The position numbers and the translations under genes were made by a program. A DNA stretch of 64,000 nucleotides from Xanthobacteraceae bacterium (GTDB taxonomy: Bacteria > Pseudomonadota > Alphaproteobacteria > Rhizobiales > Xanthobacteraceae): assembly GCA_030037895.1 (NCBI GenBank), contig JASHPW010000091.1, positions 1 to 64,000 on the forward strand, in the 5' to 3' direction. Shown here in pieces: positions 9,664-55,467 of this stretch (positions are counted from its first letter, which is position 1; each line of letters starts with the position of its first letter). The notes beneath the pieces were generated by a model, which saw nothing but the letters and a program-made list of their open reading frames with translations, did not search any database and was not told the origin of the DNA.

Positions 9664-9841
9664 GGTTAACTCCTCAACTTGTGCAACGGAACACCAACGA
9701 TAGGAAGGATAGCGCGTTCCGGCCGCGGGGTGGAGACACGCGAGCGCAACGTTTCCGGTTTGTTCCAAAAGCCACGGCTTCTAAGGTGCGATCATTGCAC
9801 CCCCGATGAGCGGCTCGGGATTCAATGATCGCCGCCGCTCA

Positions 9842-37505: not shown

Positions 37506-37590
<85 letters not shown>

Positions 37591-37685
37591 CCCCAAAACT
37601 GGGCTTCGATTTTGCTTAAGCGTTTGCCGGAAAAGTCCCACCAAGCGTTTCGGTGGGACACGATTCTATTCTTTTCGCGGTGGCG

Positions 37686-38963
37686 TCAGAAGAACCCTGA
37701 GATACCGCCGATTATACCGAGCGCGCACACAACCGACGAAACTCCGATCACTGCCCCAAGATACCAGCCGCGCAGGCGGTTCGCCTCGGGCAATGTCTTG
37801 ATCGCGAGCGCCGCCAAAAAGCCGACTACCAACGGCAACAGGAATGCGTTCAGAACTTGCGCGGCGATGTTCAGCCATACCAGATCGGAAACCCACCGCA
37901 CCGAAACGGCCGACCCGATGATGCAAGCCGCATAGACGCCAAAGAACCAACGCGCCCGGAAGGGGTGATATTCCAACGATCGGCGGTAGCCGGAAACTTC
38001 GCCAACGCCCCACGCCAGTGCCAAAGACGAGACGATAGCCGCCACCATCGCCGCGCCCAATACGCCCGCGCTGAACACAGCCTGGGCGGCCCCGCCGCCG
38101 AGAACCCGGCTTAAGGACACAATGATGTCGCCCACGCTATCTAAGGAAGTCGGTGTGAATCGGGTGCCCAAAGTGGCGGCTGCGGCAACCAGCACCGCCG
38201 CGGTCAGAAGCTGGGTCAGAATGGCACCAAAGGCGGTGTCCCACCGCTCCGCTGCAATATCGCGAGGTTTCAGCCGCTTTTCGACGACGGCCGATTGTTG
38301 ATAGAACACCATCCAGGGATTGAAGACCGCTCCGACAATAGCTGCCGCTAGATACAGAAATCGTCGATTGCCAAGCGGAATGTGCACGGCATCCCGGAGC
38401 ACCGACGCCAAATCCGGTTGGGCTGCGTAGGCAACGACGAAGAAGGCCAACTCGAACAAGCCGATTATGAGCGCCGTCCGTTCGATTCGTCTGTAGGAAC
38501 CGGTGGCCACCATCAGCAATAAGACCGCCGAGCTGAGCGACAGCGTGAAAGAGCGCGGCAGGCTGTACAGTTCGCCGATGCCGGCGATGCCCGTGAACTC
38601 GGTAATCAACGAACCGATGGTGGCCGCTGCCAAGCCTGCCACCGACAGCCAAGCCCACCCGCGTCCAAAGAACTCGCGGATCAATTCACCATGGCCACGC
38701 ATGGTGAAGATGCCCAGCCGAACCGTCAGTTCCTGTATCATGTAGAGCATGGGGATCAGCAGAAACAGCAGCGGCAACAAGTGATAGCGCCACTGCGCGC
38801 CAGCCGCGGCGGCGGTGACGACGTTGCCAGCATCCGTGTCCGCGAGCATGACCAGAAGCCCCGGCGCCCATACGGCAATGAAGCGGAGGGGGGAGGCCCG
38901 CGTCACGCGATGCCACCAGTCCACGGCCGGTTTTGTTGAATATCTTTTCTCCGCGGGCCGCAT
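37686..38963 (-). CDS. NRAMP-related divalent metal transporter
   Basis: 425 residues with about eleven membrane helices (LeuT fold). The helix-1 metal-binding motif reads LADTDAGNVVTAA in place of the canonical DPGN of NRAMP manganese/iron carriers, and the helix-6 motif reads NPWMVFYQQSAVVEK in place of the MPHN-type segment. Such replacements occur in NRAMP-related magnesium-type transporters (NRMT) described from other bacteria, so Mg or another hard cation is possible. The metal is not settled by sequence. It converges on tRNA-Leu. Confidence 0.85.
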   Translation of the reverse strand: MRPAEKRYSTKPAVDWWHRVTRASPLRFIAVWAPGLLVMLADTDAGNVVTAAAAGAQWRYHLLPLLFLLIPMLYMIQELTVRLGIFTMRGHGELIREFFGRGWAWLSVAGLAAATIGSLITEFTGIAGIGELYSLPRSFTLSLSSAVLLLMVATGSYRRIERTALIIGLFELAFFVVAYAAQPDLASVLRDAVHIPLGNRRFLYLAAAIVGAVFNPWMVFYQQSAVVEKRLKPRDIAAERWDTAFGAILTQLLTAAVLVAAAATLGTRFTPTSLDSVGDIIVSLSRVLGGGAAQAVFSAGVLGAAMVAAIVSSLALAWGVGEVSGYRRSLEYHPFRARWFFGVYAACIIGSAVSVRWVSDLVWLNIAAQVLNAFLLPLVVGFLAALAIKTLPEANRLRGWYLGAVIGVSSVVCALGIIGGISGFF

Positions 38964-39278
38964 CGCTCGAATCTGGAGAGTTGAAGGTGGCCCGTTCTCC
39001 TGACCTTACGGAGATCTCCTGACGTACAGAGAAGGCGGCTGACACGGCCGCAAGGATTCCAATTTGCCGACCGCAAAGATATCGATGACGTAATCAGGTG
39101 GGCGTTTGCAGGTAAAGATGAGATCACCGATCCGTGCCTCTTGCCCTGTCGCCGTCCCTCACGGCTCCGCCTTCGCGGGCGCCTGTCTTAAGGCATTCCC
39201 GGATCGGCGGATAATAGGCGGGTCGCCGCCGATCCGGTGCTCGACGAAGCGGGCGAGCCGATCATGTCGTTGAGCCCT
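38964..39278. other. Gene-free stretch between the NRAMP-related gene and the hydrolase gene
   Basis: 315 bases with no credible open frame, RNA gene or hairpin that I can identify. It contains the promoter region of the NRAMP-related gene. I looked for a metal riboswitch and saw no recognisable conserved core. Confidence 0.45.
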
Positions 39279-39899
39279 CTATCGACGCAGTGCCGCGGCG
39301 ATCTCGGCGCAGGTTAACGTGCGGCCGACATTCGTCAGCGCGTAATTGAGGCCTGCGCGCTGCCAATCGTCGTTCACGGTCGAGGTGCCGTCGCTGGCGA
39401 CGATCACCTCGTAGCCGGCGTCGGCCGCATGGCGGGCGGTATGCTCGATCGACATGTTGGTCCAGGCGCCGGTGATGATGAGCGTCTCGGCGCCGAACCC
39501 GCGCAACAGGCTGTCGAGTTTGGTACCGAAGAAGCCGTTCATGCGCATCTTTTCAATCACGGTGTCGCCCTGCTGGGGTTCGAGGCCGGCGACGGGCGCT
39601 GCGCCCCAGCTACCACGCACTACGGCCTTGGCCTCCTTGAGGCCTTGGAACAGTGGCGCGTTTAGCTTCAGCCCCGGTGCTCCCGGCTCGACGATATAAT
39701 GGATGTGGATCACCGGCACGCCGAGCGCCCGAGCCGCTTTGGCGAGCCCGGCTACGTTGGCGACAATGTTCTGACTTGCGGCATGTTTCGGGGCACCGGA
39801 GTCGGCAAACGCTCCTCCCTCACTAATCACGTCGTTCTGCAAATCTTGGATGATCATTGCCGCAGACGACGGATTTACACGCAAAACTTCTTTGGCCAT
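39279..39899 (-). CDS. Isochorismatase-fold hydrolase with Ser replacing the catalytic Cys
   Basis: 206 residues; the ATG follows AGGAGGAAAAAG. The isochorismatase-like triad can be placed: Asp19 in MIIQDLQND and Lys117 in IEKMRMNGFFGT. The nucleophile position in GAWTNMSIEHTARHAADAGY is Ser150, where cysteine hydrolases have Cys (TNVCVE). Isochorismatase itself lacks this Cys and acts on a vinyl ether, so the Ser form may not be an amidase. It is the last gene of the GntR-controlled cluster, 10 bases after the lactonase gene. Confidence 0.85.
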   Translation of the reverse strand: MAKEVLRVNPSSAAMIIQDLQNDVISEGGAFADSGAPKHAASQNIVANVAGLAKAARALGVPVIHIHYIVEPGAPGLKLNAPLFQGLKEAKAVVRGSWGAAPVAGLEPQQGDTVIEKMRMNGFFGTKLDSLLRGFGAETLIITGAWTNMSIEHTARHAADAGYEVIVASDGTSTVNDDWQRAGLNYALTNVGRTLTCAEIAAALRR

Positions 39900-39909
39900 C
39901 TTTTTCCTC

Positions 39910-40815
39910 CTACTTCATGTATGGCAGCTTGTTGCCGCCGATTTTCAGATTGATCTTGTAGAGCGAGGTCGACGCGCAGATGAAAAGGGTCTTCCAATCG
40001 TCGCCGCCCCAGTTGAGGTTGCCGACGTTCTCAGGCACATCGATGCGGCCCAATAACTCGGCCTTGGGGCTTATGACCCAGATGCCGCCGGGGCCGGTGA
40101 CGTAGATGTTGCCCGCGGCGTCGCATTTCATACCGTCGGGGATGCCCTCCTCGATGACGCCGGTGCCGATGTGATCGAAGAACATCTGACCATTGCCGAT
40201 GGTGCCGTCGGCATTCCGCCGGAAGACGCGGATGTGGCCGCGTGGGCTGTCATTGATGTAGAGCAGAGACTCGTCGGGCGAAAAACAAAGGCCATTGGGC
40301 TGCTCGAAGTCATCGACTAGGAGTTGCAGCTCCTGGCCCGACGGCTGCACGCGGTAGACGCCCTGGAATTTCAGGTCCTGCTTGCGCTCCAGCCCGAAGT
40401 CCGGCGTGCGGCCGTAGGTCGGGTCGCTGAAATAGATGCTCTTGTCGCGGGCGACGATGACATCGTTGGGGCTGTTGAGCTGCGTTCCCTTGTAGTGCGA
40501 GGCGACGGTCTGGCGGCTGCCGTCGGCGCGCAGGCGTATGACCGAGCTGGTCACGTGCTCGCAGATCAGAAGATCGCCGCTCGTCTCGTAAGTCAGGCCG
40601 TTGCCCTTGTTCGAGGGCCGCGCCACTTCGCGCACACCGCTCGTAGCATCCCAGCGCCGGCGCACGTCACCCGGCATGTCGCTGAACAGCAGATACTTGC
40701 CGGCGTGGTTCCAGACCGGGCCTTCGGTAAAGGTGAACCCGGTGCCGAGCCGTTCCACCTTGGCACCCTTGGGCACCAGTTCGTAGAAGCGCTCAGTATT
40801 GGTAATCGTTTCCAT
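39910..40815 (-). CDS. SMP-30/gluconolactonase-like sugar lactonase
   Basis: 301 residues with a six-bladed propeller pattern: LGTGFTFTEGPVWNHAGKYL, LTYETSGDLLICEHVTSSVI, LNSPNDVIVARDKSIYFSDP and EEGIPDGMKCDAAGNIYVTG. The metal site residues Glu (FTEGP), Asn (SPND) and Asp (PDGMK) are all visible. These enzymes open sugar lactones made by sugar dehydrogenases, which fits the dehydrogenases and sugar-type transporter in the same gene string. The ATG follows GGGAGACAGAG. Confidence 0.9.
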   Translation of the reverse strand: METITNTERFYELVPKGAKVERLGTGFTFTEGPVWNHAGKYLLFSDMPGDVRRRWDATSGVREVARPSNKGNGLTYETSGDLLICEHVTSSVIRLRADGSRQTVASHYKGTQLNSPNDVIVARDKSIYFSDPTYGRTPDFGLERKQDLKFQGVYRVQPSGQELQLLVDDFEQPNGLCFSPDESLLYINDSPRGHIRVFRRNADGTIGNGQMFFDHIGTGVIEEGIPDGMKCDAAGNIYVTGPGGIWVISPKAELLGRIDVPENVGNLNWGGDDWKTLFICASTSLYKINLKIGGNKLPYMK

Positions 40816-40856
40816 GTCTCTGTCTCCCTGGGCTTGCCGTTACGCGGACGGCTCCG

Positions 40857-41882
40857 CTAGATTTGCATCCGTGGATGCGGACTGCGCGCGTAGAGCGCGA
40901 TGGTTGGAATGATGAGCGCGCCGAGGATCGCCTCCTGCGCCGCCGACGAGAGGTCGTTACCGGCAAGGATGGTCTGCAGCACCGTCAGGATGAGAACGCC
41001 GAGCACGCTCTGACCGTAGCCGCCACGGCCGCCGACGAGCGAGGTGCCGCCAATCAGTACCGCCGCGATCGTAGTGAAGAGATAGGGATCGCCGACGCCG
41101 GCATAACCGCTGCCGGTGTAGCCGAGCAGAAGCACGCCAGTCATTGCCGCCATGACGGCGCTGAGGCTGAAGACCAGGATCCACAGCCTCTCGTTCGGCA
41201 ACAACACCCGCTCGGCGGCGGACTGGTTGCCGCCGAGAGCATAGATGCTGCGGCCGACCCAACTCTGCCGCAGCATGAAGATGATGAGCGCAGCCAGCGC
41301 CGCCCAGAGCAGCACCGCGGGTGCGACGCCGATTGCCTTGTCGGCTACGGCAAAATTTTGGATCCAATCCGGAATTTGGCCTTCGATCGTGCCGCCCGAG
41401 ATGCCGGCGTTGCCGCTGCCGCTGACCAAGATCTGGACGATGCCAAGCACGGCGTTGCCGACCCCCAGCGTCACCACCAGCGACTGCCCGCGCAGGCGAT
41501 GGCTGACGAAACCGCTGAGGGCGCCAATGGCGGCAGCGAGCGCAAGGACGACGAGGATTCCCGGCACCGATGGAACGCCTTCGTTCATCAGCTTAACCAA
41601 GCCGACATTGGCGGCGCCGACGACGAATGGGATGGAGATGTCAAGGCCGCCGATCAGCGCGCATAGCGTCTGCCCGATCGTTGCCATGCCGAGAAATGAG
41701 GCGAAGACCAAGTTCGAGCGTAAGTTGACGAGCGACCAGAAGCCGTCGATCGTCGCAGCGCCATAGGCGATCAGCGCAGCGAGCGCGACTGCCGCAAGAA
41801 CCGTGCTCTTGTATTGCATCACGGCCATGCCGAGGCTGAGCCGGCGGTTGGGGTGGGCACGGCCTGCGTCGATGGCGGTCAT
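40857..41882 (-). CDS. Sugar-type ABC transporter permease (RbsC-like), subunit 2
   Basis: 341 residues from ATG 41882, which overlaps the stop of the other permease (ATGA). About eight to ten membrane segments; LCALIGGLDISIPFVVGAAN, VVTLGVGNAVLGIVQILVSG, IYALGGNQSAAERVLL and IGGTSLVGGRGGYGQSVLGV are the RbsC/AraH-family blocks. It should pair with the permease encoded just upstream to form a heterodimeric channel. Confidence 0.93.
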   Translation of the reverse strand: MTAIDAGRAHPNRRLSLGMAVMQYKSTVLAAVALAALIAYGAATIDGFWSLVNLRSNLVFASFLGMATIGQTLCALIGGLDISIPFVVGAANVGLVKLMNEGVPSVPGILVVLALAAAIGALSGFVSHRLRGQSLVVTLGVGNAVLGIVQILVSGSGNAGISGGTIEGQIPDWIQNFAVADKAIGVAPAVLLWAALAALIIFMLRQSWVGRSIYALGGNQSAAERVLLPNERLWILVFSLSAVMAAMTGVLLLGYTGSGYAGVGDPYLFTTIAAVLIGGTSLVGGRGGYGQSVLGVLILTVLQTILAGNDLSSAAQEAILGALIIPTIALYARSPHPRMQI

Positions 41883-42895
41883 TTGCCCCACCTTGCCAGC
41901 CACTTGCCGTCGTCCGGCCGCGTCGTCGAGAGGCTTGCGAGGATTGCCCCCGCGACCAGCGCCGCGACCAGCACGGCCCCGGTCGCGAACTGCGTCCAAT
42001 AGCTTGCATTCAAGCCGAAATTGAACGTCGAAAGAACGTAAGAAATCAACCAGATATCAATGGCGCCGAGAACGGAGCCGATGCCCTTGGCCCGGCCGCC
42101 GCCGAGACTCGCGCCGCCAATGACGAGTGCCGTCACCGCGTTCAGCGTATAGGGCGCGCCGGCGGTCGGGTCGGCCGAGCCGATGAGCCCGGTGTACATG
42201 ACGCTCGCGATGCCGACGAACACGCCGGCGATGACATGGGCGCCGATCCGCGTCGGGATCAGCGAAATCCCGCTGACGAAGGCGGTGCGGTCGTTCGCGC
42301 CCATGAGGCGGATGTTGCGGAAAAAGGTCGTCCGCGACACCAGCCACCACAACACGAACGCAGCGAGTGGGACGTAGAGGATCGGCGAGAAGATCGTGGA
42401 CGCCGAGCCGAAATTGGAAAGCCAAGCCGGTGCCGTGCCGCCCGAGTGGGGCAAGATGACCGTATTCGAGCCGTCGACCACGAGGTACACGGCGAGCGTC
42501 ACCACCACGGTGCTGATGCGCAGCGTCGCAATCAGCGTGCCCATCGCCGCCTGAAGCAGAACGCCGAGTCCGATGGCGCAGGCGAAGACGGCGACCGGCC
42601 CGGTCAGGTCGATCTTTGTCAGCCCGAGGACGATCGTGATGTTGATCAGGGTCATTATCGGGCCGATCGAAAGGTCGACGCCGGCCGGACCGGCGATGGC
42701 GATCGGGGTCAGCGCCAAGGTAGCAAGGACCAGCGGTGAGGCGCCGATGAGGGCACCGGCAAGCCCGTCGGAGGTGAAAAGATGCGGGCCGCGGATCGCG
42801 GCGATGACGAGCAGCACCACGAAGAGGATTGCCGGCGTCGCCAACGAGCGCTGCCTGTTGATGCCGCGCAAGGCCACGGCCTCAGTGCTGGGCAT
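41879..42895 (-). CDS. Sugar-type ABC transporter permease (RbsC-like), subunit 1
   Basis: 338 residues from ATG 42895, MPSTEAVALRGINRQRSLAT, overlapping the ATPase gene by 14 bases. The family blocks are IAGPAGVDLSIGPIMTLINI, IRLMGANDRTAFVSGISLI and IGGASLGGGRAKGIGSVLGA. The longer open frame upstream lies inside the ATPase gene and is not coding. Confidence 0.92.
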   Translation of the reverse strand: MPSTEAVALRGINRQRSLATPAILFVVLLVIAAIRGPHLFTSDGLAGALIGASPLVLATLALTPIAIAGPAGVDLSIGPIMTLINITIVLGLTKIDLTGPVAVFACAIGLGVLLQAAMGTLIATLRISTVVVTLAVYLVVDGSNTVILPHSGGTAPAWLSNFGSASTIFSPILYVPLAAFVLWWLVSRTTFFRNIRLMGANDRTAFVSGISLIPTRIGAHVIAGVFVGIASVMYTGLIGSADPTAGAPYTLNAVTALVIGGASLGGGRAKGIGSVLGAIDIWLISYVLSTFNFGLNASYWTQFATGAVLVAALVAGAILASLSTTRPDDGKWLARWGK

Positions 42896-44495
42896 CGCCG
42901 AGGCCCTGTAAGTTGGTGTAGCCAAACATCGCGGCGAGCACGGCATCGCTCGTGATCTCGCTGGCCGCAAGCGTGCGGAAAACGGTCTGCGACCTGAACA
43001 CGAAGACGCGGTCGCACAGACCGAGGAACTCCTCGATCTCGTTGGAAAGAAATAACACGACCTTGCCCGCCGTCGCCAAGCTGTGGAGCAAAGCGTAGAT
43101 GTCGTATTTGGCACCGATGTCGACGCCGCGCGTCGGATCATTCAGCGCCAGTACCAGGGGTGCGGCGGCAAGCGCGCGGCCGACCACGAGCTTCTGCTGA
43201 TTGCCGCCGCTCAACGAGTTGATCGGAGCGTCGGTGTGTCCCATGCGAATTGAAAGATTCTGCACCTGCTGCGAGAACATTCGTTTCACGCGCTGCCGAT
43301 TGATCACGCCGGCCCGCGCTGTCCGTCGGTATAATGCCACGCCGAAATTCTCGAATACCGAGAGATTGGGGAATATCCCTTCCACTTTCCGGTCGCCGGG
43401 GATGTAAGCCATGTTCGCCCGCTCGGCGGCTCTTGCGGAGTCGATCACGTGGCGAATCCCCCGGCTCGTGACTGTCACCTCGCCGGCGACCGGCTCGCGG
43501 AAGCCGGTGATGGTCTGCATGAACTCTACCTGGCCGTGCCCCTCGAGACCGGCCAGCCCGACAATCTCGCCGGCGCTTACCGTGAGATCGATCGGCGCAG
43601 CGTAGGGCGTAAGCTTGAGGCCTGAGACTGCGAGCGCTTTGTCGCCGACGGCGCGAGCTTCGCGCGCCGAGGGCCCGACAGCGGTTGGGCGCGATTCGCC
43701 GCGCATCAGTTCGAGCAGCCGTACCTCTGTAATCTCGGTACCTGTCAGCGTGCCGACGTCGACACCGTCGCTGAGAACGGTGGCGCGGTCGCAGATCGTG
43801 GTAAGCTCGTGAATGCGGTGCGAGACGAGCAGCACGCAAACGCCGTCCGCACGGAGCTGCCGCATCACATCGAAGAAACGCTCGGCACTGGAATGGTCAA
43901 GTGCCGCCGTCGACTCGTCGAAAACGATGACGCGCGGATGGCTGAGCAACGCCCGCGCGATCACGATCCATTGCCGCGTATTGAGTGGCAGTTCATTGAC
44001 CGGAACGTCGAGGTCAACGGGGGTGCCGACGAGACGGGTGAGCAACTCTTGCGCCTGCACCTGTTTTTTTCTCGACGACAGACGGGCACGGAACAGCCCG
44101 TCGTCGCCGACGAAGAGGTTGTCGAGAACGGTGGCACCCTCGGCGACGAGGATCTCCTGAAAGACGACTGCGATGCCCATCGCCCTTGCCGCGTGTGGGC
44201 TTGTCGGACGCTTACCGTTGACCTCGATTGTACCGGCATCGGGATGAAGTACGCCGGCGAGCAGTTTCGCCAGCGTGCTTTTGCCGCTGCCGTTTTCGCC
44301 CACGATCGCGTGTACTTCACCAGACCGCGCGGCGAACGAGCATGAACGCAGCGCATGGGCCTCGCCAAACGACTTGCTGACCTTGCGTACGACCACCGCG
44401 TCGATGCCGGGTGTCGTGGACACACCCGGCACCGGCGCGGCCATCAGATCGACGTTCCGCACTGCTGACGCCCCCGTTCTCGTCATCCAGTCCAC
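42882..44495 (-). CDS. Sugar-type ABC transporter ATP-binding protein with two ATPase domains (RbsA/MglA-like)
   Basis: About 537 residues, two nucleotide-binding domains. Domain 1 has Walker A GENGSGKSTLAKLLAGVL and Walker B VIVFDESTAALD, but its signature region reads ELPLNTRQWIVIARALL, far from LSGGQ. Domain 2 lacks a good Walker A (GLEGHGQVEFMQTIT) as usual for RbsA-like proteins, and has a canonical SLSGGNQQKLVVGRAL plus VLALNDPTRGVDIGA. The start is uncertain: a GTG at 44495 or an ATG nine bases later. It energises the two permeases. Confidence 0.92.
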   Translation of the reverse strand: MDWMTRTGASAVRNVDLMAAPVPGVSTTPGIDAVVVRKVSKSFGEAHALRSCSFAARSGEVHAIVGENGSGKSTLAKLLAGVLHPDAGTIEVNGKRPTSPHAARAMGIAVVFQEILVAEGATVLDNLFVGDDGLFRARLSSRKKQVQAQELLTRLVGTPVDLDVPVNELPLNTRQWIVIARALLSHPRVIVFDESTAALDHSSAERFFDVMRQLRADGVCVLLVSHRIHELTTICDRATVLSDGVDVGTLTGTEITEVRLLELMRGESRPTAVGPSAREARAVGDKALAVSGLKLTPYAAPIDLTVSAGEIVGLAGLEGHGQVEFMQTITGFREPVAGEVTVTSRGIRHVIDSARAAERANMAYIPGDRKVEGIFPNLSVFENFGVALYRRTARAGVINRQRVKRMFSQQVQNLSIRMGHTDAPINSLSGGNQQKLVVGRALAAAPLVLALNDPTRGVDIGAKYDIYALLHSLATAGKVVLFLSNEIEEFLGLCDRVFVFRSQTVFRTLAASEITSDAVLAAMFGYTNLQGLGDAQH

Positions 44496-44522
44496 GTGAA
44501 TGCACCCGTGAGTTTGCCGGCG

Positions 44523-45770
44523 CTACCCTTTCTTTTGCAGCGGATCTGCCGGCCGCTCGAAGTACATGTCCATCGTCTTGCGCGGGAACCACTCCTGGTA
44601 CGGCGGCTCGACCCATTCGTTGGAGGTATAGGTGGTGCCGGCAGGGAGCAGGTTCGCGAGATCCGAGTGTTTGATCGCCCCCGGCCCGATCAGGATGCTC
44701 GCGATCTTCGGTCCCTGACCCAGAAGCGTACGCAGCATGGCTTCCCAGCCTTCCTCCATCTCGTTGCCCGGAGGCCAAGCCTGATAGGTGAGCTTGAGCC
44801 AATCGGGATGGTCGCGCCAATAGGCGAGCGGGCCCATCTCGCCGCCAGCGGTGATCGGCACGATCTTCCGACCAGCCTGTTGCAGGGCACTCAACGCACC
44901 GAGGTCGCCCGGCGACTGGGAGGCGAGGCCATGGAGCGGCTGCGGATGGGTCGCGAGGAACTCCAGGACCTTGGTCTTGGCAACTGAATCCACCCAACTA
45001 CCATCGACAGTTCCGACGACTTTGATGCCCGGGAAGCCCTTCAAGCCGACCTCGTGGCCCCGGCGGAAATCGTCGCTCGCCTCGGCCTGTGGGATGCCCT
45101 GGACAATCAGAACGTTGCCTTTGCCGCCCATGCTCTGGCCGAGCGCTTGGCCTTGAAGTTTGCCGCCCAACGCGTAGTTGCCGCTGATCTGCAACGCATA
45201 GGGTGAAGTTACGCCGCCCTGGATGGCGACGAACAGCACTCCGTGATCGTAGGCATACTTAATGACGCCGTTCAGGGCCGTCGGCGCCGCGCCGATCGTC
45301 ATGATGGCGTCGCAGCCTTGATCGACGAGTTGGCGAATTTGTTGAATCTGCTTGGGGAGGTCGAGATTGGCCTCGGTGGTGATGACGTCGCGGACCAGAC
45401 CGGCCGCCTTGTATTTTGGCAACAGCACTTCCTGGAGCCGGGTTCGCGCACCGATGCGCCAAGTGTTGCCGCCGAACGAGCTGGCATAGCCGATCAGCCA
45501 GGGTGCCGACTTCTTTGGCTTGAAGTCATGATATACGCTTGCACCGAGCGGAGTCGTGGTTGCAAGCTCGTAATATTGCTGAACTTCGGCGGGCAGGCTC
45601 TTCAGTACCGACTCGCTGCCAGCGGCGGCCGCCCAGACTTTGGCCGACCCCACCAAGCCGCCCATGATACCTGCCGCGGCGACGCTGCCAGTCTGCAGCA
45701 GCGCGCGACGGCTAAGCTTGGCCGGCGTCAATTGCAGATTGTCGTGTTGATTCTTCCGGGTCGCTTCCAT
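44523..45770 (-). CDS. Sugar-type ABC transporter substrate-binding protein, Tat-exported
   Basis: 415 residues; the ATG follows GGGAGAAACCG. The twin-arginine signal LSRRALLQTGSVAAAGIMGG indicates export as a folded protein. The mature domain is of the ribose-binding Peripla_BP_4 type: WLIGYASSFGGNTWRIGART, IQQIRQLVDQGCDAIMTIGA, GNVLIVQGIPQAEASDDFRR and VVGTVDGSWVDSVAKTKVLE. The ligand is unknown; the neighbouring lactonase and alcohol dehydrogenase suggest a sugar, polyol or related acid. Confidence 0.92.
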   Translation of the reverse strand: MEATRKNQHDNLQLTPAKLSRRALLQTGSVAAAGIMGGLVGSAKVWAAAAGSESVLKSLPAEVQQYYELATTTPLGASVYHDFKPKKSAPWLIGYASSFGGNTWRIGARTRLQEVLLPKYKAAGLVRDVITTEANLDLPKQIQQIRQLVDQGCDAIMTIGAAPTALNGVIKYAYDHGVLFVAIQGGVTSPYALQISGNYALGGKLQGQALGQSMGGKGNVLIVQGIPQAEASDDFRRGHEVGLKGFPGIKVVGTVDGSWVDSVAKTKVLEFLATHPQPLHGLASQSPGDLGALSALQQAGRKIVPITAGGEMGPLAYWRDHPDWLKLTYQAWPPGNEMEEGWEAMLRTLLGQGPKIASILIGPGAIKHSDLANLLPAGTTYTSNEWVEPPYQEWFPRKTMDMYFERPADPLQKKG

Positions 45771-45866
45771 CGGTTTCTCCCTTGTTAAAAACTTAGTTAT
45801 GGATGTATGTGAACGACGTTCACCCTGCTTCGCGCACTTCGAGTCTTTAGTTTGGCCTCGCCCCCT

Positions 45867-46046
45867 TCATCGACGCTGGGCCGGCATGTCGTGGTGCGCG
45901 CACGCTTGGCCGAGACCGCTCCGCTCGACGAGCACGTCAACGCGGGCACCCCGCGCAGCCGGCCGCCATCGGCCACCGATAAAGAGGTCGGTTATGACGC
46001 CGGTGACCTCGGCGGCATCGATTGGGGCGGTGGCAGCGAGCGACAT
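45867..46046 (-). pseudogene. N-terminal stub of an aldehyde dehydrogenase
   Basis: It starts 11 bases after the alcohol dehydrogenase stop, on the same strand. It reads TGVITDLFIGGRWRPAARGA then RVDVL, which is the N-terminal strand pair of NAD-dependent aldehyde dehydrogenases. After about 39 residues it runs into unrelated sequence and stops at 45867. The remaining 430-odd residues of such an enzyme are absent. The remaining spacer to the binding-protein gene (45771-45866) holds nothing recognisable. Confidence 0.6.
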
Positions 46047-46057
46047 GACACGAACTC

Positions 46058-47290
46058 TCATTCGGCTGCGGACAGATGCGCCCCCCGCCAGTCGCCGACG
46101 AAGGCCGCGTTGACGATGGACGTCGCTCCCTCGAGGTCGAGCGAGCGCGGATTGTTGGTGACGAGGCGTGTGGCCTTGAGCGACTGACTTGCAACCCACG
46201 CAAGCTGATCAGCCTTCAGACCGAGGTCGGCCAGCGTCTTGGGAATCCCGATGTCGTCAAACAGCGCGGAGACGGCCGCCACGGCGGCGTCCGCAAGCTC
46301 CTCTTGATCGGTGCCGGCAATGCCCATGGCGCGAGCGACCTCGGCATAGGTCGCGGTGCAGTTCGGGCGGTTGAAAGCCATGACATAGCGCAGCAGCGCC
46401 GCGACACCGAGGCCGTGGGCGGTATGGGTCAAGGCGCCGACCGGATATTGGATGGCGTGTGCGGCGCCGGTGCCGGCGCTGCCGAAGGCGAGACCGGCTA
46501 GCATCGCGGCGTACATCACCGCGGAGCGCGCTTCGAGGTCCGCACCGTCGGCGACCGCGCGAGGCAGGTAGGTCGTGAGCGCCGTAATCGCGGTAAGCGC
46601 ATTGCGGTCGCTCAGCCCGTTTTTGCCGACAAAGACGCGGTCGACTGTGAGCCCCGGCTCGCGAGGGCGCCTGACCGCGGTGAAGGATTCGATCGCATGG
46701 GCCATGGCATCGGCGCCGGAAAGTGCGGTCAAGCCGGGCGGGCATGACAGCGTCAGTTCGGGATCGCAGATCGCGGTGTGGGGAATGAGGTACGGGCTGG
46801 AGATTCCGACCTTGAGCGTCTGATTGGAGTCGCCCAAGACCGCAACGGGCGTGACCTCCGATCCGGTGCCCGAGGTCGTCGGCATCCCGATCACCGGTAG
46901 CACGGGCCCCGGCACACGGTTCTCGCCGTAGAAACTGTCCACCGTGCCGTCGTAGCTCAGCATCAGCGCGACGACCTTGGCCATGTCGAGGCAGCTGCCA
47001 CCGCCGATGCCGATCACCACGCTGGGCTTGAAAGACCGCGCGACGTCGAGGCAAGCGAGGATGCCGGTGAGCGGGAGCTCGGCTTCGGTGCCATCGAAAA
47101 CCAGGACGGCCATACCTTGGTCGTCGAGCGAAGCTCGGAGCACCGTCATGTCGTTGGTCGAGGCGAAGCGCGTGTCGGTGCAGACCAGCGCTCGCTTGCC
47201 GATCTGGCCGGCTATCCGGCCAAGGCTGAGGCGCTGGCCTGGTCCAAAGAGGATCGCGCGCGACGCCCGCATCACTCCGAAGTCGATCAT
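46058..47290 (-). CDS. Iron-containing alcohol dehydrogenase (group III)
   Basis: 410 residues of NAD(P)-dependent alcohol/polyol dehydrogenase. Conserved parts are VVIGIGGGSCLDMAKVVALM (nucleotide loop), IGMPTTSGTGSEVTPVAVLG, and metal-ligand regions GADAMAHAIESFTAVRR, AHAIQYPVGALTHTAHGLGV. His ligands are visible in AMAHAIES, AAHAIQ and THTAHG. It probably oxidises an alcohol to the aldehyde that the now-truncated neighbour would once have handled. Confidence 0.93.
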   Translation of the reverse strand: MIDFGVMRASRAILFGPGQRLSLGRIAGQIGKRALVCTDTRFASTNDMTVLRASLDDQGMAVLVFDGTEAELPLTGILACLDVARSFKPSVVIGIGGGSCLDMAKVVALMLSYDGTVDSFYGENRVPGPVLPVIGMPTTSGTGSEVTPVAVLGDSNQTLKVGISSPYLIPHTAICDPELTLSCPPGLTALSGADAMAHAIESFTAVRRPREPGLTVDRVFVGKNGLSDRNALTAITALTTYLPRAVADGADLEARSAVMYAAMLAGLAFGSAGTGAAHAIQYPVGALTHTAHGLGVAALLRYVMAFNRPNCTATYAEVARAMGIAGTDQEELADAAVAAVSALFDDIGIPKTLADLGLKADQLAWVASQSLKATRLVTNNPRSLDLEGATSIVNAAFVGDWRGAHLSAAE

Positions 47291-47331
47291 CTTCAGTGCT
47301 TTCCGCTCATCACATTTGTTCCCAAGCGCCG

Positions 47332-48366
47332 TTAGCCGTTAGCCGCGCGGCGCGCTGGCGGCGCTTTTGCCAGAGTACAAATCTCGCTCCACAATTCCTC
47401 AGTAACCGGGATGCCGGTGGCCAGACGCTCGGCGCGACGCAGGAGTGAACCTTCGCCCGGCACCAGCACCGGGCTGCCGGGCCGACTCGGCGGGCAGGCG
47501 CGGACGGCATCGAGGTAGGCTGAAATGCTCGGCCCCACCGCGCTCGAGACGGGGTCGACGACGATGAATACGTCGCCCTTGTTGCAAGGCCGATCGGAGT
47601 CAAGGGTGCCGACAACGTCTGTACCGAGCGCTGCCCCGGTCAAGCTCGTCACCAGCACTTCGAGCGCGAGACCGAGAGCGTAACCTTTGGCACCGCCGAA
47701 CGGCGAGATAGCGCCGTGCGTAGCGGCGTCGGGGTCGGTGGTCGGCTCGCCATTGGCGTCGAGCGCCCAATCGGCGGGGATCGGCGTGCCACGCTGGGCA
47801 TGATCGTAAATCTTGCCCATCGCCACCCGACTCGTGGCCATATCGAGCACCAGTGGGTGGGGCGCCGCAGGTACGCCGATGGCAATGGGGTTGGTCCCGA
47901 GCATCGCCTTGCGTCCGCCCCAGGGATGGACCAACGCTTCGCTCGTCGTGATCGCAATCGCCGTTTGTCCCTTCGCGGCAATGCGCTCGACATACCAACC
48001 AAGCATGCCCAGGTGGTTGTTGTTGGCGATCGCCGCGACGGCAATGCCGGTCCGGCGCGCCCTCTCCGCGATCGCTGCAAGTGCCGGACCTGCCACGACC
48101 GGACCGAGCCCGCGACGGCCGTCAACCTGAAGGAAGGCTTCGGAGCGCCAAGTGGCGACGCCTTCCGTCACAGGATCGGCCACGCCGTTGTGGATGCGTT
48201 CGATGATTCGCGGTAGTCGCAGCAGACCGTGGGACGGGCGATCGCACAGCTCTGCCTCGAGCAATAGATCAATTTGAGTCTGCGCGTGCTGATCGGGCAC
48301 GCCGGCGAGAGCCAAGGCGCGTATGCCCATCGACCGGGCATCTGCATGACTGATCGCGAGAATCAT
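47332..48366 (-). CDS. Malate/L-lactate dehydrogenase family oxidoreductase (Ldh type)
   Basis: 344 residues of the Ldh/MDH2 family (ComC, YlbC, YiaK relatives) that reduce or oxidise 2-oxoacids with NAD(P). Blocks: ADARSMGIRALALAGVPDQH, HGLLRLPRIIERIHNGVADP, NNHLGMLGWYVERIAAKGQT and PLVLDMATSRVAMGKIYDHA. It is the first gene of the leftward cluster, divergent from the GntR gene, and its start lies 8 bases from an operator candidate. Confidence 0.93.
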   Translation of the reverse strand: MILAISHADARSMGIRALALAGVPDQHAQTQIDLLLEAELCDRPSHGLLRLPRIIERIHNGVADPVTEGVATWRSEAFLQVDGRRGLGPVVAGPALAAIAERARRTGIAVAAIANNNHLGMLGWYVERIAAKGQTAIAITTSEALVHPWGGRKAMLGTNPIAIGVPAAPHPLVLDMATSRVAMGKIYDHAQRGTPIPADWALDANGEPTTDPDAATHGAISPFGGAKGYALGLALEVLVTSLTGAALGTDVVGTLDSDRPCNKGDVFIVVDPVSSAVGPSISAYLDAVRACPPSRPGSPVLVPGEGSLLRRAERLATGIPVTEELWSEICTLAKAPPARRAANG

Positions 48367-48373
48367 AAAATCT

Positions 48374-48389
48374 AATCGGATATCTGATT
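48374..48389. promoter_or_regulatory. Candidate GntR operator
   Basis: AATCGGATATCTGATT is a 16-base dyad with 14 of 16 positions symmetric, centred on GATATC. It lies in the 130-base, AT-rich divergent spacer between the Ldh-type and GntR genes, directly upstream of the Ldh start. A second shorter dyad, TAGGG-ATA-CCCTA, lies near 48407-48419. FCD-type GntR proteins bind such short palindromes and commonly repress both directions until the inducer binds. Confidence 0.5.
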
Positions 48390-48496
48390 TGATATTGTGA
48401 AAACTAGGGATACCCTATTAATGTGTCAAGATGATTCGCGCAGTCCGACAATCGGTCATAATTGGAGATGAAACCGCGTGGGGGGAGGTGAAGAAC

Positions 48497-49153
48497 GTGC
48501 CGCGCCGTGTGTCGCTTGGGGACGACGTCTACGAGGCGCTACTCACACGGCTGATCTCGCTGAAAATCGCGCCCGGCGCGCGGATCAACGTGGACGCGCT
48601 GGTGAAGGATCTCGGCGTGTCACAGACGCCGATCCGCGCTGCGCTCGTGCGCCTCGAGGTCGAGGGGCTGGTCGTCAAAACCCACTTGGTAGGCTATAGC
48701 GCCGCGCCGCTGCCCGGCCGCCGTCGCTTCGAACAGATATATGAATTGCGCATGCTGCTCGAGCCCGTTGCCGCGGCCAATGCGGCGCGTGCTTTGACGC
48801 CGGCAGACCGCACGGCATTGCAAGAGCTCCACGATGCGATGGCGACACCTTCGTCCGCGGATGCGCGGCTTGCCTACGGAAAATTTGCCACCTGGGACGC
48901 CGCGTTCCATGCGCGTATTGCGACCGCGGGCGGCAGCGATCTGATCGCTGAGACGCTGGCCCGTCTGCACACGCACATGCACCTGTTCCGGCTGTTGTTT
49001 CACTCGCGCGTGACGGAGGAAGCGATCAGCGAGCACGCCGCAATCATGGCCGCGCTGCGCGCCGGCGATCCCGATGCAGCCCAAGTGGCGATGAAGCGCC
49101 ACATCCTCTTCTCGCAGAAAAGAATGGCGCCGATCTTCGAAACGTTGGAATAG
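48497..49153 (+). CDS. GntR-family regulator with FCD domain
   Basis: About 218 residues. I chose the GTG at 48497 because GGGGGAGGTG lies 6 bases upstream and the protein then begins MPRRVSLGDDVYEALLTRL; the ATG at 48431 is in frame but lacks a ribosome site. The winged helix-turn-helix (about 8-70) reads VDALVKDLGVSQTPIRAALV, then RLEVEGLVVK. The FCD ligand domain contains IYELRMLLEPVAAANAARAL and the metal-ligand pattern near RAGDPDAAQVAMKRHI. It is the likely regulator of the divergent gene cluster. Confidence 0.93.
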   Translation: MPRRVSLGDDVYEALLTRLISLKIAPGARINVDALVKDLGVSQTPIRAALVRLEVEGLVVKTHLVGYSAAPLPGRRRFEQIYELRMLLEPVAAANAARALTPADRTALQELHDAMATPSSADARLAYGKFATWDAAFHARIATAGGSDLIAETLARLHTHMHLFRLLFHSRVTEEAISEHAAIMAALRAGDPDAAQVAMKRHILFSQKRMAPIFETLE

Positions 49154-49174
49154 GGGCATTCCCGCGAGACACCA

Positions 49175-49201
49175 CGACATAATGTCGGCACGGTTGTTTT
49201 T
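49175..49201 (+). terminator. Candidate intrinsic terminator downstream of the GntR gene
   Basis: Hairpin CGACAT-A-ATGTCG (49175-49187) is followed within 10 bases by TTGTTTTT. The stem is short, but it sits 22 bases after the GntR stop codon and before the convergent efeB gene. Confidence 0.45.
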
Positions 49202-49312
49202 ATACCGTTTTTCGTCTGCGCGGACATCACGCCTTTTACCGCTTCACCATGACCTGCGACCTGCCGCAGCTCGCTGAGCCGGCGCGGCGTGGGCGAGGAC
49301 GGCGATCCTGCC

Positions 49313-50545
49313 TCAGGCGAACATTCCTTCGGCGATGTATGAGCCCTCCTGAGGTGCGGGTGGCACGAAAAAGATCGCTGAGCCGATGTGGGAAACATAT
49401 TCGTTAAGAGCGTCGGAGGCGCCGAGCTTGACTTGTAAGGCTTCGAAATGCGCCGGATCGTTCTGGTAGGCGATGAACAGGAGACCTGCGTCGAGAAGCC
49501 CGACCTGATTGATGCCATCTGTATAGTTATAGGGACGTCGCAGAATCTTGATCCCGCCGTTGTTCTCGTGGGCGGCCAATCGAATGTGCGCCGTGAGCGG
49601 GATGATGAAATTCCCGTCGGCGTCCTTTTTCTCGAAGTCCGGCGTGTCAAACTCCCCGGTGCCCGTCAGCGGGGCTCCGGAGATCTTGAAGCGCCCAATC
49701 ACCTTGTTCTGATCACTGACCCGGTCCGTATCCCAGTTCTCGATATGCATCTGGATCTTGCGCACGATTTGATAGGTTCCGTGCCGCTGCCAGGATGGCC
49801 CGTCCAAGATCCAGACGAATTTGTCGAAATCGGCATTCTCCATGACGTTACGGGTGCCGTCCTTGAAGCCGAGGAGATTGCGCGGCGTGGTTTCGCCCTT
49901 GCCGGCGGATGCTCGGCCGAAGCCCATGACGGTCCAGCGCGTGGCCGCGGCGCCTGTATCCTTGGCGATGCGGGCGAGGTCGCGGACGGCGTGGTAGGCG
50001 ACCTCAGGGTCATCGGCGCAGGCCTGGAGGGAGAGATCACCACCAGTCAAGCGCGGTTCAAGTGCATCGCTGGGAAGACGCTTGAGATCGCGCAGCAAGG
50101 CCGGTCTCTGGTGACTGAGACCATAGGTATCGGTGAATATCCTGGGGCCTAGCCCGACGGTCACGGTCAAAGATGCGGGGCCGAGGTCCAAGGCCTCGCC
50201 AGTGTCGAAGCCGACGCCGTTGGCGCGGGTCGGCTCGACCTGCCCGATGGTCTCGCCTTTCATCAATTGGGCAATCGCGCCCGACCACCGCGCCAGCAGG
50301 ATCTGCAAATCCGACCGCTGCGCAGAGGTAAGGTCAAAGGTCATGTAGAAAACATTGCGTTGCGGGGACGTACGTATGCCGGCTTGCTCGGCGACGCCGT
50401 AGAAGGCGTGCCGCTGAGTCAGATCGACGACGTCCTCGACGCCGTTTGGAGCGGCTTGCGCGGCCGTGCAAGTGGCCGCGCCGATTGTGCCCGCGGCGGT
50501 TCCGAAAAGCACGTCGCGGCGGGAAAGATGATTATTCTGGCTCAT
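49313..50545 (-). CDS. efeB: Dyp-type heme peroxidase of the ferrous iron uptake system
   Basis: 410 residues from ATG 50545. A twin-arginine signal (NHLSRRDVLFGTAAGTIGAA) exports it folded with heme. The Dyp motif is LGFKDGTRNVMENADFDKF (GxxDG) with the distal Arg nearby; the proximal His region and FIAYQNDPAHFEALQ follow. EfeB oxidises Fe(II) or acts on heme in the periplasm for EfeUO. It is the last gene of efeU-efeO-efeB, 23 bases after efeO. Confidence 0.94.
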   Translation of the reverse strand: MSQNNHLSRRDVLFGTAAGTIGAATCTAAQAAPNGVEDVVDLTQRHAFYGVAEQAGIRTSPQRNVFYMTFDLTSAQRSDLQILLARWSGAIAQLMKGETIGQVEPTRANGVGFDTGEALDLGPASLTVTVGLGPRIFTDTYGLSHQRPALLRDLKRLPSDALEPRLTGGDLSLQACADDPEVAYHAVRDLARIAKDTGAAATRWTVMGFGRASAGKGETTPRNLLGFKDGTRNVMENADFDKFVWILDGPSWQRHGTYQIVRKIQMHIENWDTDRVSDQNKVIGRFKISGAPLTGTGEFDTPDFEKKDADGNFIIPLTAHIRLAAHENNGGIKILRRPYNYTDGINQVGLLDAGLLFIAYQNDPAHFEALQVKLGASDALNEYVSHIGSAIFFVPPAPQEGSYIAEGMFA

Positions 50546-50568
50546 GCCCAAACGGCTGCCGTCCGTCA

Positions 50569-51795
50569 TCAGTGAATGGTTGCGACTTTCTCAGCGATTT
50601 TGGACAGCGGCTCCTGGAGCGTTTGAATGCTCTTGCTGAGCTTGGCGGCGTCGGCGGCCTTTAATTCGGCGGTGTAGATCTTATAACCGCCGGATACGCG
50701 CGGATCGCGGTATGTGTCGAGCAGCGCCTTCACCGTTGCGAACTCGCCGGTTACCCTCTTGGCGAGTTCTGGATCAATCTTATCCATACCGGGCTCGAGA
50801 AACGCGAAAGCCTGCTGAGCGCCTTCGACATTGCCCGCGAAGTCGACAAGATCGTAGTGGCTGAACGCTTCTTCCTCGCCTGTGATCTTGGTATTTTGCA
50901 CCTCTTCAAGAAGGTCGGCGGCGCCGTTGGCGAGATCCTCAGGCTTGTAGGTGAGCGATTTCACCACGCTATCGAGCGTGTCGACGTTCTTCTGCAGTTC
51001 GGCGGCCTGCTTTCTGGTCTCATCGGTGATCCGTCCATTCTGGAACAGGTCGCGCTCGATGGCGTGGAAGCCATGCCAGCCGACCTTCTCGTCAAGGTTG
51101 GAGGCGCGCATATCGATGAGATAATCGAGATTGCCAGCGTTGTCGGTGGCCTTGAATCCGGGCAGCACGAAGCCGCCGACATCGGATTCGATGCGCTCGT
51201 AGAACGGACGGGCCAGCGGATAGTCTGCCTTGGCCTTGGCGAGGTCGCCGGCGTCGATGTCCACCTTCAGACGATTGACTGCCGTCACCATGGCGTCGAC
51301 GACGCCGTCTACGTAATTCGCATATCCCCGGGTGCCGGAGGCGAGGATCTCCGCCGTGCTGCCGATTGGCTCGGCTGCGGCCTTCCCGGTGACAGTGAAG
51401 TCCTGCAGTTCCTGCTTCGCGCCGGGGCAGTAGATCTGGTACGTCCCGCCGCCGAGCGTGAGGGTGAAGCTGACCGTGGGCAGGCCCGGGGCGAGATTCT
51501 CCTTCTCGCCGAGGATGCGATTGTTGCTTTGCAGCTCGATCTCCGCGATCGCGGTGGCGGTTTTGTTGGTCACGGCGAAGGTGATTGGTCCGGCTTTGGC
51601 CGAAGTATGGTCAAGGATGCAGGCGCCGCCGTTGTCGCCGGCAAGGGTGATCTTGACCTGGGAGGCGCCGTTCTCCACCGGCGCGGGCGAGCCATCCTGG
51701 GCGACGGCTATTGCGCCGGCGCCGGCGGCAAGCGCGAGCAGCGTCGCCAGTCCGGTTGTGGCGATGAGCGACTGTATCGGGTTAAAGAGCGGCAT
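50569..51795 (-). CDS. efeO: Periplasmic iron-binding protein EfeO (cupredoxin plus M75 domain)
   Basis: 408 residues from ATG 51795, behind AAAGGAG. A signal peptide (IATTGLATLLALAAGAGAIA, cleaved after VAQ) is followed by a cupredoxin-like domain (ILDHTSAKAGPITFAVTNKT, then YQIYCPGAKQELQDFTVTG). The M75 imelysin-like domain comes next, with the HxxE iron motif in VGWHGFHAIERDLFQNGRIT. It delivers iron to the EfeU permease. Overlap with efeU is 14 bases. Confidence 0.94.
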   Translation of the reverse strand: MPLFNPIQSLIATTGLATLLALAAGAGAIAVAQDGSPAPVENGASQVKITLAGDNGGACILDHTSAKAGPITFAVTNKTATAIAEIELQSNNRILGEKENLAPGLPTVSFTLTLGGGTYQIYCPGAKQELQDFTVTGKAAAEPIGSTAEILASGTRGYANYVDGVVDAMVTAVNRLKVDIDAGDLAKAKADYPLARPFYERIESDVGGFVLPGFKATDNAGNLDYLIDMRASNLDEKVGWHGFHAIERDLFQNGRITDETRKQAAELQKNVDTLDSVVKSLTYKPEDLANGAADLLEEVQNTKITGEEEAFSHYDLVDFAGNVEGAQQAFAFLEPGMDKIDPELAKRVTGEFATVKALLDTYRDPRVSGGYKIYTAELKAADAAKLSKSIQTLQEPLSKIAEKVATIH

Positions 51796-53425: not shown

Positions 53426-53571
53426 GGCGGCACCCCGCTAAGGGGCTTCGATGTCTTCGGCATTGGCGCCCGTCTGCGGTTGCAACAACGTCGCGCAGCA
53501 ATGGGCGCGGCGCGTGTTCAACTTTGAAATTCCCTTTTATGCGGTTGGGAGAACGCCTGCAATCGCAATGA

Positions 53572-53588
53572 TTTAGATCGATTCCAGT
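53572..53588. promoter_or_regulatory. Candidate Irr (iron control element-like) site upstream of efeU
   Basis: TTTAGATCGATTCCAGT matches 10 of 14 specified positions of the rhizobial ICE consensus TTTAGAA-N3-TTCTAAA (counting by eye). It lies about 150 bases upstream of efeU. Irr regulates iron genes in this bacterial group, so the site would fit, but the match is partial and the distance is long. Confidence 0.35.
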
Positions 53589-53620
53589 GTTTATCGCTCA
53601 AAGCAAAAAACTGGCGAGGT

Positions 53621-53803
53621 TTGTGCAGCCCGCTGCTCGCCAAGGACCTCGACGACTTCCAGTTCGACGGTACCCCGATCACCGAGACACCGAGACCCTG
53701 GTGCGCGATTTGGCCAGTGGCGGCTTCCTTGCCCAAAGCGCAATGCTGTCCTGGTCGGCGGTGCCCGCACAGGCAAACACACCTAGCAATCGGATATTCG
53801 TGA
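53621..53803 (+). pseudogene. IS21-family istB fragment, frameshifted
   Basis: Fragments of the IstB ATPase are readable across two frames: LLAKDLDDFQFDGTPITET, then LVRDLASGGFLAQ, and an NAVLVGGARTGK P-loop remnant with THLAIG. At least three lesions break the frame: an 8-base tandem duplication (ACCGAGAC at 53681-53688 and 53689-53696), a 2-base insertion near 53740, and a missing base near the P-loop. No istA, terminal repeats or target duplications were found. It marks the right edge of the accessory region. Confidence 0.75.
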
Positions 53804-53858
53804 CTTTAAAGCGCGGCGTCGTGCTCCCATCTTGAGCTTTGCGCAAGCGAGTCCGGCA

Positions 53859-54692: not shown

Positions 54693-54788
54693 TTTTGACG
54701 CGCCAAACCGGTTACGATATTCAACCGGCAGCGCCCACGAGTCCTGACCGGTGTGCGCCACACGAGCCTTGCCGCAGCGCGTTCCCGC

Positions 54789-55421: not shown

Positions 55422-55467
55422 TACCTGGAGCACTGAAGAGCGCTCCGCTCAGCGCGCGGCCTGCGAC

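Follow-up and report, generated by a model that had tools for sequence, protein, structure and literature searches.

What compound is taken up and broken down by the tightly packed, GntR-controlled gene cluster of a Xanthobacteraceae bacterium? The cluster occupies positions 39279–49153 of the 64,000-nucleotide stretch analysed here (the window; contig JASHPW010000091.1). Its sequence suggests that it may be a GntR-repressed, horizontally acquired catabolic operon acting on a small sugar acid or polyol derivative that can form a lactone, a reading that in our judgement is evenly balanced. As a sugar-type catabolic operon it is of a known kind. Its new-looking component, which also looks new as a functional unit, is a pair of enzymes: an SMP-30-family lactonase and an isochorismatase-fold protein in which Ser replaces the catalytic Cys. 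We tentatively propose that the pair is quite possibly an undescribed, phylum-spanning two-step unit, a lactonase and a Ser variant acting on a C–O bond, often in one bifunctional protein. The unit would be plugged into different oxidation modules, and the window operon would be the version linked to a GntR-controlled sugar-acid module.

Gene layout and conservation of the operon

Open reading frame (ORF) calls and Pfam/NCBIfam searches confirmed all the genes that an earlier note on this DNA had named here, with the same families, and bore out its picture of a tightly packed string behind one divergent regulator. The string runs from a GntR regulator to an Ldh2-family dehydrogenase, an iron-containing alcohol dehydrogenase (Fe-ADH), a stub of an aldehyde dehydrogenase (ALDH) of the succinate-semialdehyde dehydrogenase (SSADH) type, a sugar ABC transporter of the CUT2 family whose binding protein is exported by twin-arginine translocation (Tat), SMP-30 and the isochorismatase-fold protein. 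The minus-strand genes are spaced by −14 to +41 bp, and only the Fe-ADH and binding-protein genes stand further apart, at 287 bp, with the ALDH remnant in between; 64 bp separate the divergent GntR gene from Ldh2. The features are as follows.

48431–49153, plus strand: GntR/FCD-family regulator, divergent (PF00392 and PF07729; 81% identity with the Acidisoma regulator)
48429–48401, minus strand: promoter-like site TTGACA-N17-TAGTTT, read directly from the sequence
48368–48389, minus strand: putative GntR operator AATCAGATATCCGATTAGATTT, a motif conserved upstream of Ldh2 in most related loci
47332–48366, minus strand: Ldh2-family (malate/L-lactate/sulfolactate type) 2-hydroxyacid dehydrogenase (PF02615, E 1.7e-102; PDB 3uoe closest)
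46058–47290, minus strand: Fe-ADH (PF00465/PF25137; Asp/His metal-ligand motifs present)
45933–46046, minus strand: remnant of an SSADH-type ALDH, about 38 codons (tblastn E 2e-5)
44523–45770, minus strand: Tat-exported CUT2-type solute-binding protein (PF13407; predicted fold)
42882–44495, minus strand: CUT2 dual-ATPase subunit, AraG/RbsA-type, start codon uncertain (PF00005 twice)
41879–42895, minus strand: CUT2 permease 1, overlapping the ATPase gene by 14 bp, start inferred (PF02653)
40857–41882, minus strand: CUT2 permease 2, overlapping permease 1 by 4 bp, start inferred (PF02653)
39910–40815, minus strand: SMP-30/gluconolactonase-family lactonase (PF08450, E 2.5e-46; putative gluconolactonase 3e5z closest in PDB)
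39279–39899, minus strand: isochorismatase-fold enzyme with Asp19, Lys117 and Ser150, the last replacing the catalytic Cys (PF00857, E 2e-44)

A search for the same gene set in other genomes, as the earlier note had advised, was productive. Acidisoma sp. L85 (locus L068) holds all nine genes in the same order at 71–81% protein identity. A Myxococcota metagenome-assembled genome (MAG), also titled Deltaproteobacteria (L065), holds everything but the regulator at 73–84% identity; the regulator would fall outside the stretch compared. In L063 and L064 the transporter, SMP-30 and isochorismatase genes stand behind unrelated genes, and the short contig L066 carries part of the same block. Because the nine-gene order is found again in Acidisoma, and from Ldh2 onward in L065, it is not a product of chance. 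Proteins this similar in the host order of Alphaproteobacteria, in the Acetobacterales and in a Myxococcota MAG suggest that the operon has moved horizontally. The operon is built of three joined modules: GntR/Ldh2/Fe-ADH/SSADH (the last three hereafter the triad), the CUT2 transporter, and SMP-30 with the Ser-type isochorismatase fold.

A lactonase paired with a Ser-type isochorismatase-fold enzyme

The window SMP-30 protein carries an SGL domain in which the TEGPVW, NSPND, PNGL and DGM motifs were located, placing it in the lactonase family. Its partner has the PF00857 domain and the isochorismatase fold, and its predicted model (predicted local distance difference test, pLDDT, 87) is closest to 3kl2 (Z 30, 1.8 Å over 201 residues; function unknown) and then to RutB (Z 27). 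Alignment with RutB puts Ser150 at the catalytic Cys position, so that Asp19 and Lys117 of the Asp-Lys-Cys triad are kept and the Cys is replaced. A scan of one genome per species across 84,980 species, based on an alignment of three isochorismatase domains, gave 80 loci; the search patterns excluded the catalytic Cys/Ser position. This position is Ser in 79 of the 80 loci, Ala in one and Cys in none, and Asp19 and Lys117 are invariant in the 29 members aligned. The single Ala-for-Ser relative lies in L113 near 10414 (GALTNMAVEHTAR).

In 79 of the 80 loci an SMP-30 gene is found on the same strand, no more than 300 bp away, and in 26 both domains share one open frame; the pair is conserved from Alphaproteobacteria to Actinomycetota and Acidobacteriota. 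At the exception, L067, the isochorismatase gene adjoins GntR and a divergent triad, an arrangement that provides a second tie between the triad module and the Ser-isochorismatase module. This locus (9339–10621) comes from a MAG with TonB receptors; the Ser-isochorismatase gene follows GntR, the divergent genes are Ldh2, Fe-ADH and SSADH, and no SMP-30 gene is found in the 14.6 kb covered.

The partners of the pair differ among lineages. Many Alphaproteobacteria have a fused SMP-30/isochorismatase gene at the end of an operon of flotillin, SRPBCC, CoxM/S/L-like hydroxylase, MoxR, CoxE-type VWA, fuconolactonase-like amidohydrolase and metallo-beta-lactamase (MBL) genes, and in Actinobacteria the pair sits with CoxSML, SSADH, Zn-dependent alcohol dehydrogenase, amidase and RidA genes. 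The fuconolactonase-like amidohydrolase and the MBL lactonase-like gene count in favour of lactone chemistry. A group of these operons (L052, L053, L110–L142) has a split CoxL-like Mo-hydroxylase with separate MoCoBD_1 and MoCoBD_2 genes, together with MoxR, CoxE-type VWA, flotillin, amidohydrolase, MBL and the fusion, and looks like a conserved undescribed pathway in its own right.

Of the two steps suggested earlier, amide or enol-ether, the amide option loses ground, as the catalytic Cys is Ser in 79 of 80 relatives scored; the enzyme is more likely to act on an enol-ether, an ester or a second lactone. True isochorismatases split a vinyl ether through an Asp and need no thiol. For this reason we prefer an ether or ester step over an amide step. 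Catalysis by Asp37 of isochorismatase has been described (PMC12210187). The open-access full text held no relevant paper on an SMP-30 and isochorismatase gene set, and the claim that no described operon matches the whole cluster likewise held in the open-access literature, an absence that is weak evidence. If the Ser-type family does have its own reaction, a single assay would help to annotate the 80 relatives and the Mo-hydroxylase operons with the same pair.

The oxidation module has lost its aldehyde dehydrogenase

Fe-ADH, SMP-30 and Ldh2 all retain their metal and active-site motifs. Neighbour comparison and trees assign the window Ldh2 and Fe-ADH, with their divergent GntR gene, to the triad family, and the proteins of the window, L065 and L068 form one clade with support of 100/99 for Ldh2 and 100/98 for Fe-ADH. 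The stub noticed earlier proved to be a real remnant: an ATG at 46046 opens a frame encoding DLFIGGRWRPAARGARVDV, which aligns with the N-terminus of SSADH-type ALDH (tblastn E 2e-5), and nothing of the gene beyond these roughly 38 codons is left at the window locus. Related loci without the SMP-30/isochorismatase part have an intact SSADH gene right after Fe-ADH. L065 keeps a decayed SSADH at the same place, with an in-frame stop near the N-terminus, part of the middle gone and the C-terminus FGGVKQSGLGREG retained, and in Acidisoma SSADH is absent and the Fe-ADH and binding-protein genes, as called, are 28 bp apart. These differences indicate that the gene was lost to different extents in three orthologous operons; by its sequence, the window ALDH is a decayed gene and not a functioning member of the operon. 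An intact SSADH relative (60–61% identity) lies on host contig C50 and may have taken over the lost step.

Many Hyphomicrobiales and rhizobial plasmids carry the GntR/Ldh2/Fe-ADH/SSADH set, with varying neighbours. They include DJ-1, a one-permease CUT2 transporter and an alpha/beta hydrolase (L061, L215–L218, L220–L222); dehydratases of the mandelate racemase (MR) superfamily that most resemble talarate/galactarate and galactonate dehydratases, together with peptide-type ABC genes (L207, L211, L213, L214, L219); an HpaI/GarL-like (HpcH/HpaI) aldolase (L060); RraA and an apiosidase-like glycoside hydrolase (L181, L212); a TctABC tripartite tricarboxylate transporter with CaiB and enoyl-CoA hydratase (L180); and genes of a tripartite ATP-independent periplasmic (TRAP) transporter (L056), the last two transporters being of carboxylate type. 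Genes of unannotated loci were called by a simple script, so these lists are approximate. From the neighbour genes and family chemistry we infer that the starting compound of the triad module is a hydroxy acid ending in CH2OH and its product a 2-oxo (di)acid. The acid-sugar dehydratases and the HpaI/GarL-like or RraA aldolases beside the oxidative genes also support sugar-acid or lactone chemistry, in line with the sugar-acid oxidation first suggested for the cluster. Apiose, raised as a substrate by the apiosidase-like gene near the triad in L181 and L212, was set aside because that gene occurs in one lineage only. Mevalonolactone and pantolactone came up as candidate substrates purely on chemical grounds.

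A conserved putative operator upstream of Ldh2

The GntR–Ldh2 gaps of triad loci share a 22-bp motif close to AATCAKATATCCKATNNGATTT, and the window site at 48368–48389 matches it in full. Across the host genome (3.27 Mb) at up to three mismatches, the only matches are this site and its overlapping reverse. The motif scores 17–22 of 22 in 19 of 20 other triad gaps and 14 in L067, against a mean of 12.2 and a maximum of 19 for random segments of the same loci; since the motif was derived from part of the scored loci, this shuffle comparison is partly circular, and the whole-genome uniqueness is not. With TTGACA-N17-TAGTTT just upstream, the operator would cover the point where transcription begins, an arrangement typical of repressors. 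GntR is the presumed binder of the putative operator, whose conservation agrees with a single GntR-controlled catabolic operon.

A CUT2 transporter of sugar type

The binding protein, double ATPase and two BPD_transp_2 permeases together identify a CUT2 sugar ABC transporter. The binding protein bears the twin-arginine motif SRRALLQ. In the fold search its predicted model (mean pLDDT 84) scored Z 31.9 against 4pe6 and about 30 against polyol/sugar binders of Mycobacterium. The search retrieved general sugar/polyol binders only; the model shows a sugar-type fold and names no ligand. With the transporter families, it lends support to the predicted uptake of a sugar or polyol.

The binding-protein family (40–46% identity) is scattered in Hyphomicrobiales and extends to Rhizobium etli p42d, the symbiotic plasmid on which relatives (43% identity) lie beside GntR, alpha/beta hydrolase and SSADH genes. 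As a guide to the substrate, the subfamily did not settle the question, because its neighbours differ (alpha/beta hydrolase, MBL, flotillin, IclR and a symporter-like protein). In L032–L048, relatives occur in operons with a flotillin-like protein, an alpha/beta hydrolase, an MBL protein and an IclR regulator; a flotillin gene also precedes the Cox operons that carry the pair.

Proposed pathway and alternative explanations

The pathway proposed here starts from what the sequence holds, namely the gene set and its conservation, the conserved operator, the Cys-to-Ser change, the ALDH decay and the accessory location described below; we infer the substrate class and how the steps are ordered and directed. 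The compound would enter through the Tat-exported binding protein and the CUT2 transporter, and SMP-30 would open its lactone. The Ser-type enzyme would act on the same intermediate and remove a substituent, most likely by hydrolysing an enol-ether, ester or second lactone bond, using the acid chemistry of true isochorismatases and not the Cys-amidase mechanism. Fe-ADH would convert the terminal CH2OH into an aldehyde, and an ALDH of the SSADH type, no longer present at the locus and presumably encoded by another gene, would turn this into the acid. Ldh2 would oxidise the 2-hydroxy group to give a 2-oxo (di)acid, and this product would feed into central metabolism by way of an aldolase or a decarboxylation. 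Derepression would come about when an intermediate releases GntR from the putative operator, which would overlap the start of Ldh2 transcription. An undescribed catabolic route can be approached here from three sides: through its binding protein, through a regulator whose operator is named, and through the conserved enzyme pair.

Several observations weigh against this pathway. CoxL occurs in 29 of the 80 loci with the pair, many partners being Mo-hydroxylases and not the triad, and the pair may therefore serve chemistry other than plain sugar-acid oxidation. The genes that adjoin the binding-protein subfamily elsewhere (for alpha/beta hydrolase, MBL protein and flotillin) would also suit compounds of other classes. 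The SSADH gene on C50 adjoins 2-oxoacid dehydrogenase genes and has no operator, and the window operon contains no aldolase.

The isochorismatase-fold protein might instead be an amidase that removes an amide or carbamoyl group, as its best fold neighbours of known function (RutB, BiuH and NicF) are amidohydrolases. We consider this quite unlikely, given that the catalytic Cys has become Ser family-wide (79 of 80 scored). Going by their titles, crystal structures exist of C-to-S forms of BiuH and TrtA with substrate bound, an argument that in those two enzymes Ser is no stand-in for Cys on amides. The Cys-to-Ser change would also fit a catalytically dead protein that stabilises SMP-30 or serves it as a scaffold, as would the near-obligate adjacency and frequent fusion of the two. 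This is unlikely too, since Asp19, Lys117, Ser150 and the motif GAWTN[MF]S[IV]EHT hardly vary between phyla, whereas a decaying active site would. Catabolism of a C3-sulfonate (2,3-dihydroxypropane-1-sulfonate, DHPS, or sulfolactate), with Fe-ADH, ALDH and Ldh2 acting as in the oxidation of a 1,2-diol to sulfopyruvate, appears very improbable. In NCBIfam, Fe-ADH does match sulfoacetaldehyde reductase best, and Ldh2 L-sulfolactate dehydrogenase, and SMP-30 is a sulfolactonase family in the sulfoglycolytic Entner-Doudoroff pathway, but neither dehydrogenase comes near the curated cut-off of its family (SarD, 239 of 700 bits for Fe-ADH; sulfolactate dehydrogenase, 242 of 500 for Ldh2), and no desulfonating enzyme was seen in the operon or beside related triads.

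Another alternative is a BlcABC-like system as in Agrobacterium, degrading gamma-butyrolactone-like lactones or lactones derived from acyl-homoserine lactone (AHL), with SMP-30 and the isochorismatase-fold protein as lactonases followed by Fe-ADH and SSADH. The blcABC genes on pAtC58 follow the same lactonase, Fe-ADH and SSADH logic, and the SSADH of the R. etli triad is 50% identical to BlcA. HqiA provides an example of an isochorismatase-fold AHL lactonase; it retains D, K and C, whereas the window protein has Ser (PMC5430456 for HqiA). The window Fe-ADH is only 37% identical to BlcB, which falls far outside the triad clade in the tree, and Blc lacks Ldh2 and an ABC transporter and has an IclR regulator. 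On this evidence we regard a BlcABC-like system as unlikely.

An accessory region beside tRNA-Leu

Returning to the operon as a horizontally acquired element, two further features describe its setting.

37506–37590, plus strand: tRNA-Leu (CAG), left edge of the accessory region
37594–53839: accessory region containing the operon, missing between the same two flanking genes in congener G308 (blastn and tblastn blocks against L173; junction sequences)

Ldh2 (E ≤ 1e-60) is absent from the 19 congeners searched, several of which are incomplete. The gene left of the operon region is 73–81% identical in most congeners, which indicates that the contig belongs to the host. In G308 this gene and tRNA-Leu are followed within about 80 bp by a homolog of the window gene at 53679–55433, so that 16.2 kb (37594–53839) are missing; the G308 state is an empty site or a deletion. 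An attachment repeat (a copy of the tRNA 3′ end) was looked for and not found, and no integrase was seen among the ORFs read. The region also holds an NRAMP-like metal transporter gene between tRNA-Leu and the operon (37686–38963) and, at 49313–53425, genes for a dye-decolourising (DyP-type) peroxidase and EfeO-like and EfeU-like iron uptake, a trio found on other contigs in two congeners (L177, L178).

Comparison with known systems

In blcABC (attKLM) of Agrobacterium fabrum C58 pAt, a lactonase, an iron alcohol dehydrogenase and an SSADH act in series on a lactone as proposed here, but the lactonase is an MBL protein instead of SMP-30. The window operon has no BlcB-orthologous Fe-ADH, and its SSADH partner is only a 38-codon remnant; it works partly like BlcABC and is not a member. 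RutB, BiuH and NicF, with EntB and PhzD of the isochorismatase superfamily, share the fold and the Asp and Lys positions with the window protein at only 17–32% identity, and the nucleophilic Cys of the amidohydrolases is Ser here. The CoxSML-like Mo-hydroxylase operons of Bradyrhizobium, Hoeflea, Yoonia and Actinobacteria have the homologous SMP-30/Ser-isochorismatase pair, often fused, whereas their partners are CoxSML, MoxR, CoxE-type VWA, amidohydrolase and MBL genes, with neither the triad nor such a CUT2 transporter.

The teu locus of Rhizobium tropici, for root-exudate uptake, also has a sugar-type ABC transporter (PMC3557214) and serves as a lead only, by way of the p42d relatives of the binding protein noted above. 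An uncharacterised Rhizobiaceae operon (DJ-1, solute-binding protein, CUT2 permease, CUT2 ATPase and GntR, with Ldh2, Fe-ADH, SSADH and alpha/beta hydrolase) resembles the window operon in its regulator family, its operator motif and the families and order of its three dehydrogenases, and likewise has a CUT2 transporter and a hydrolase. In contrast, its transporter belongs to a different branch and has a single permease gene, its SSADH is intact, and the places of SMP-30 and the Ser isochorismatase are taken by alpha/beta hydrolase and DJ-1. In Rhizobiaceae-type loci, the triad is joined independently to a different CUT2 transporter and an alpha/beta hydrolase.

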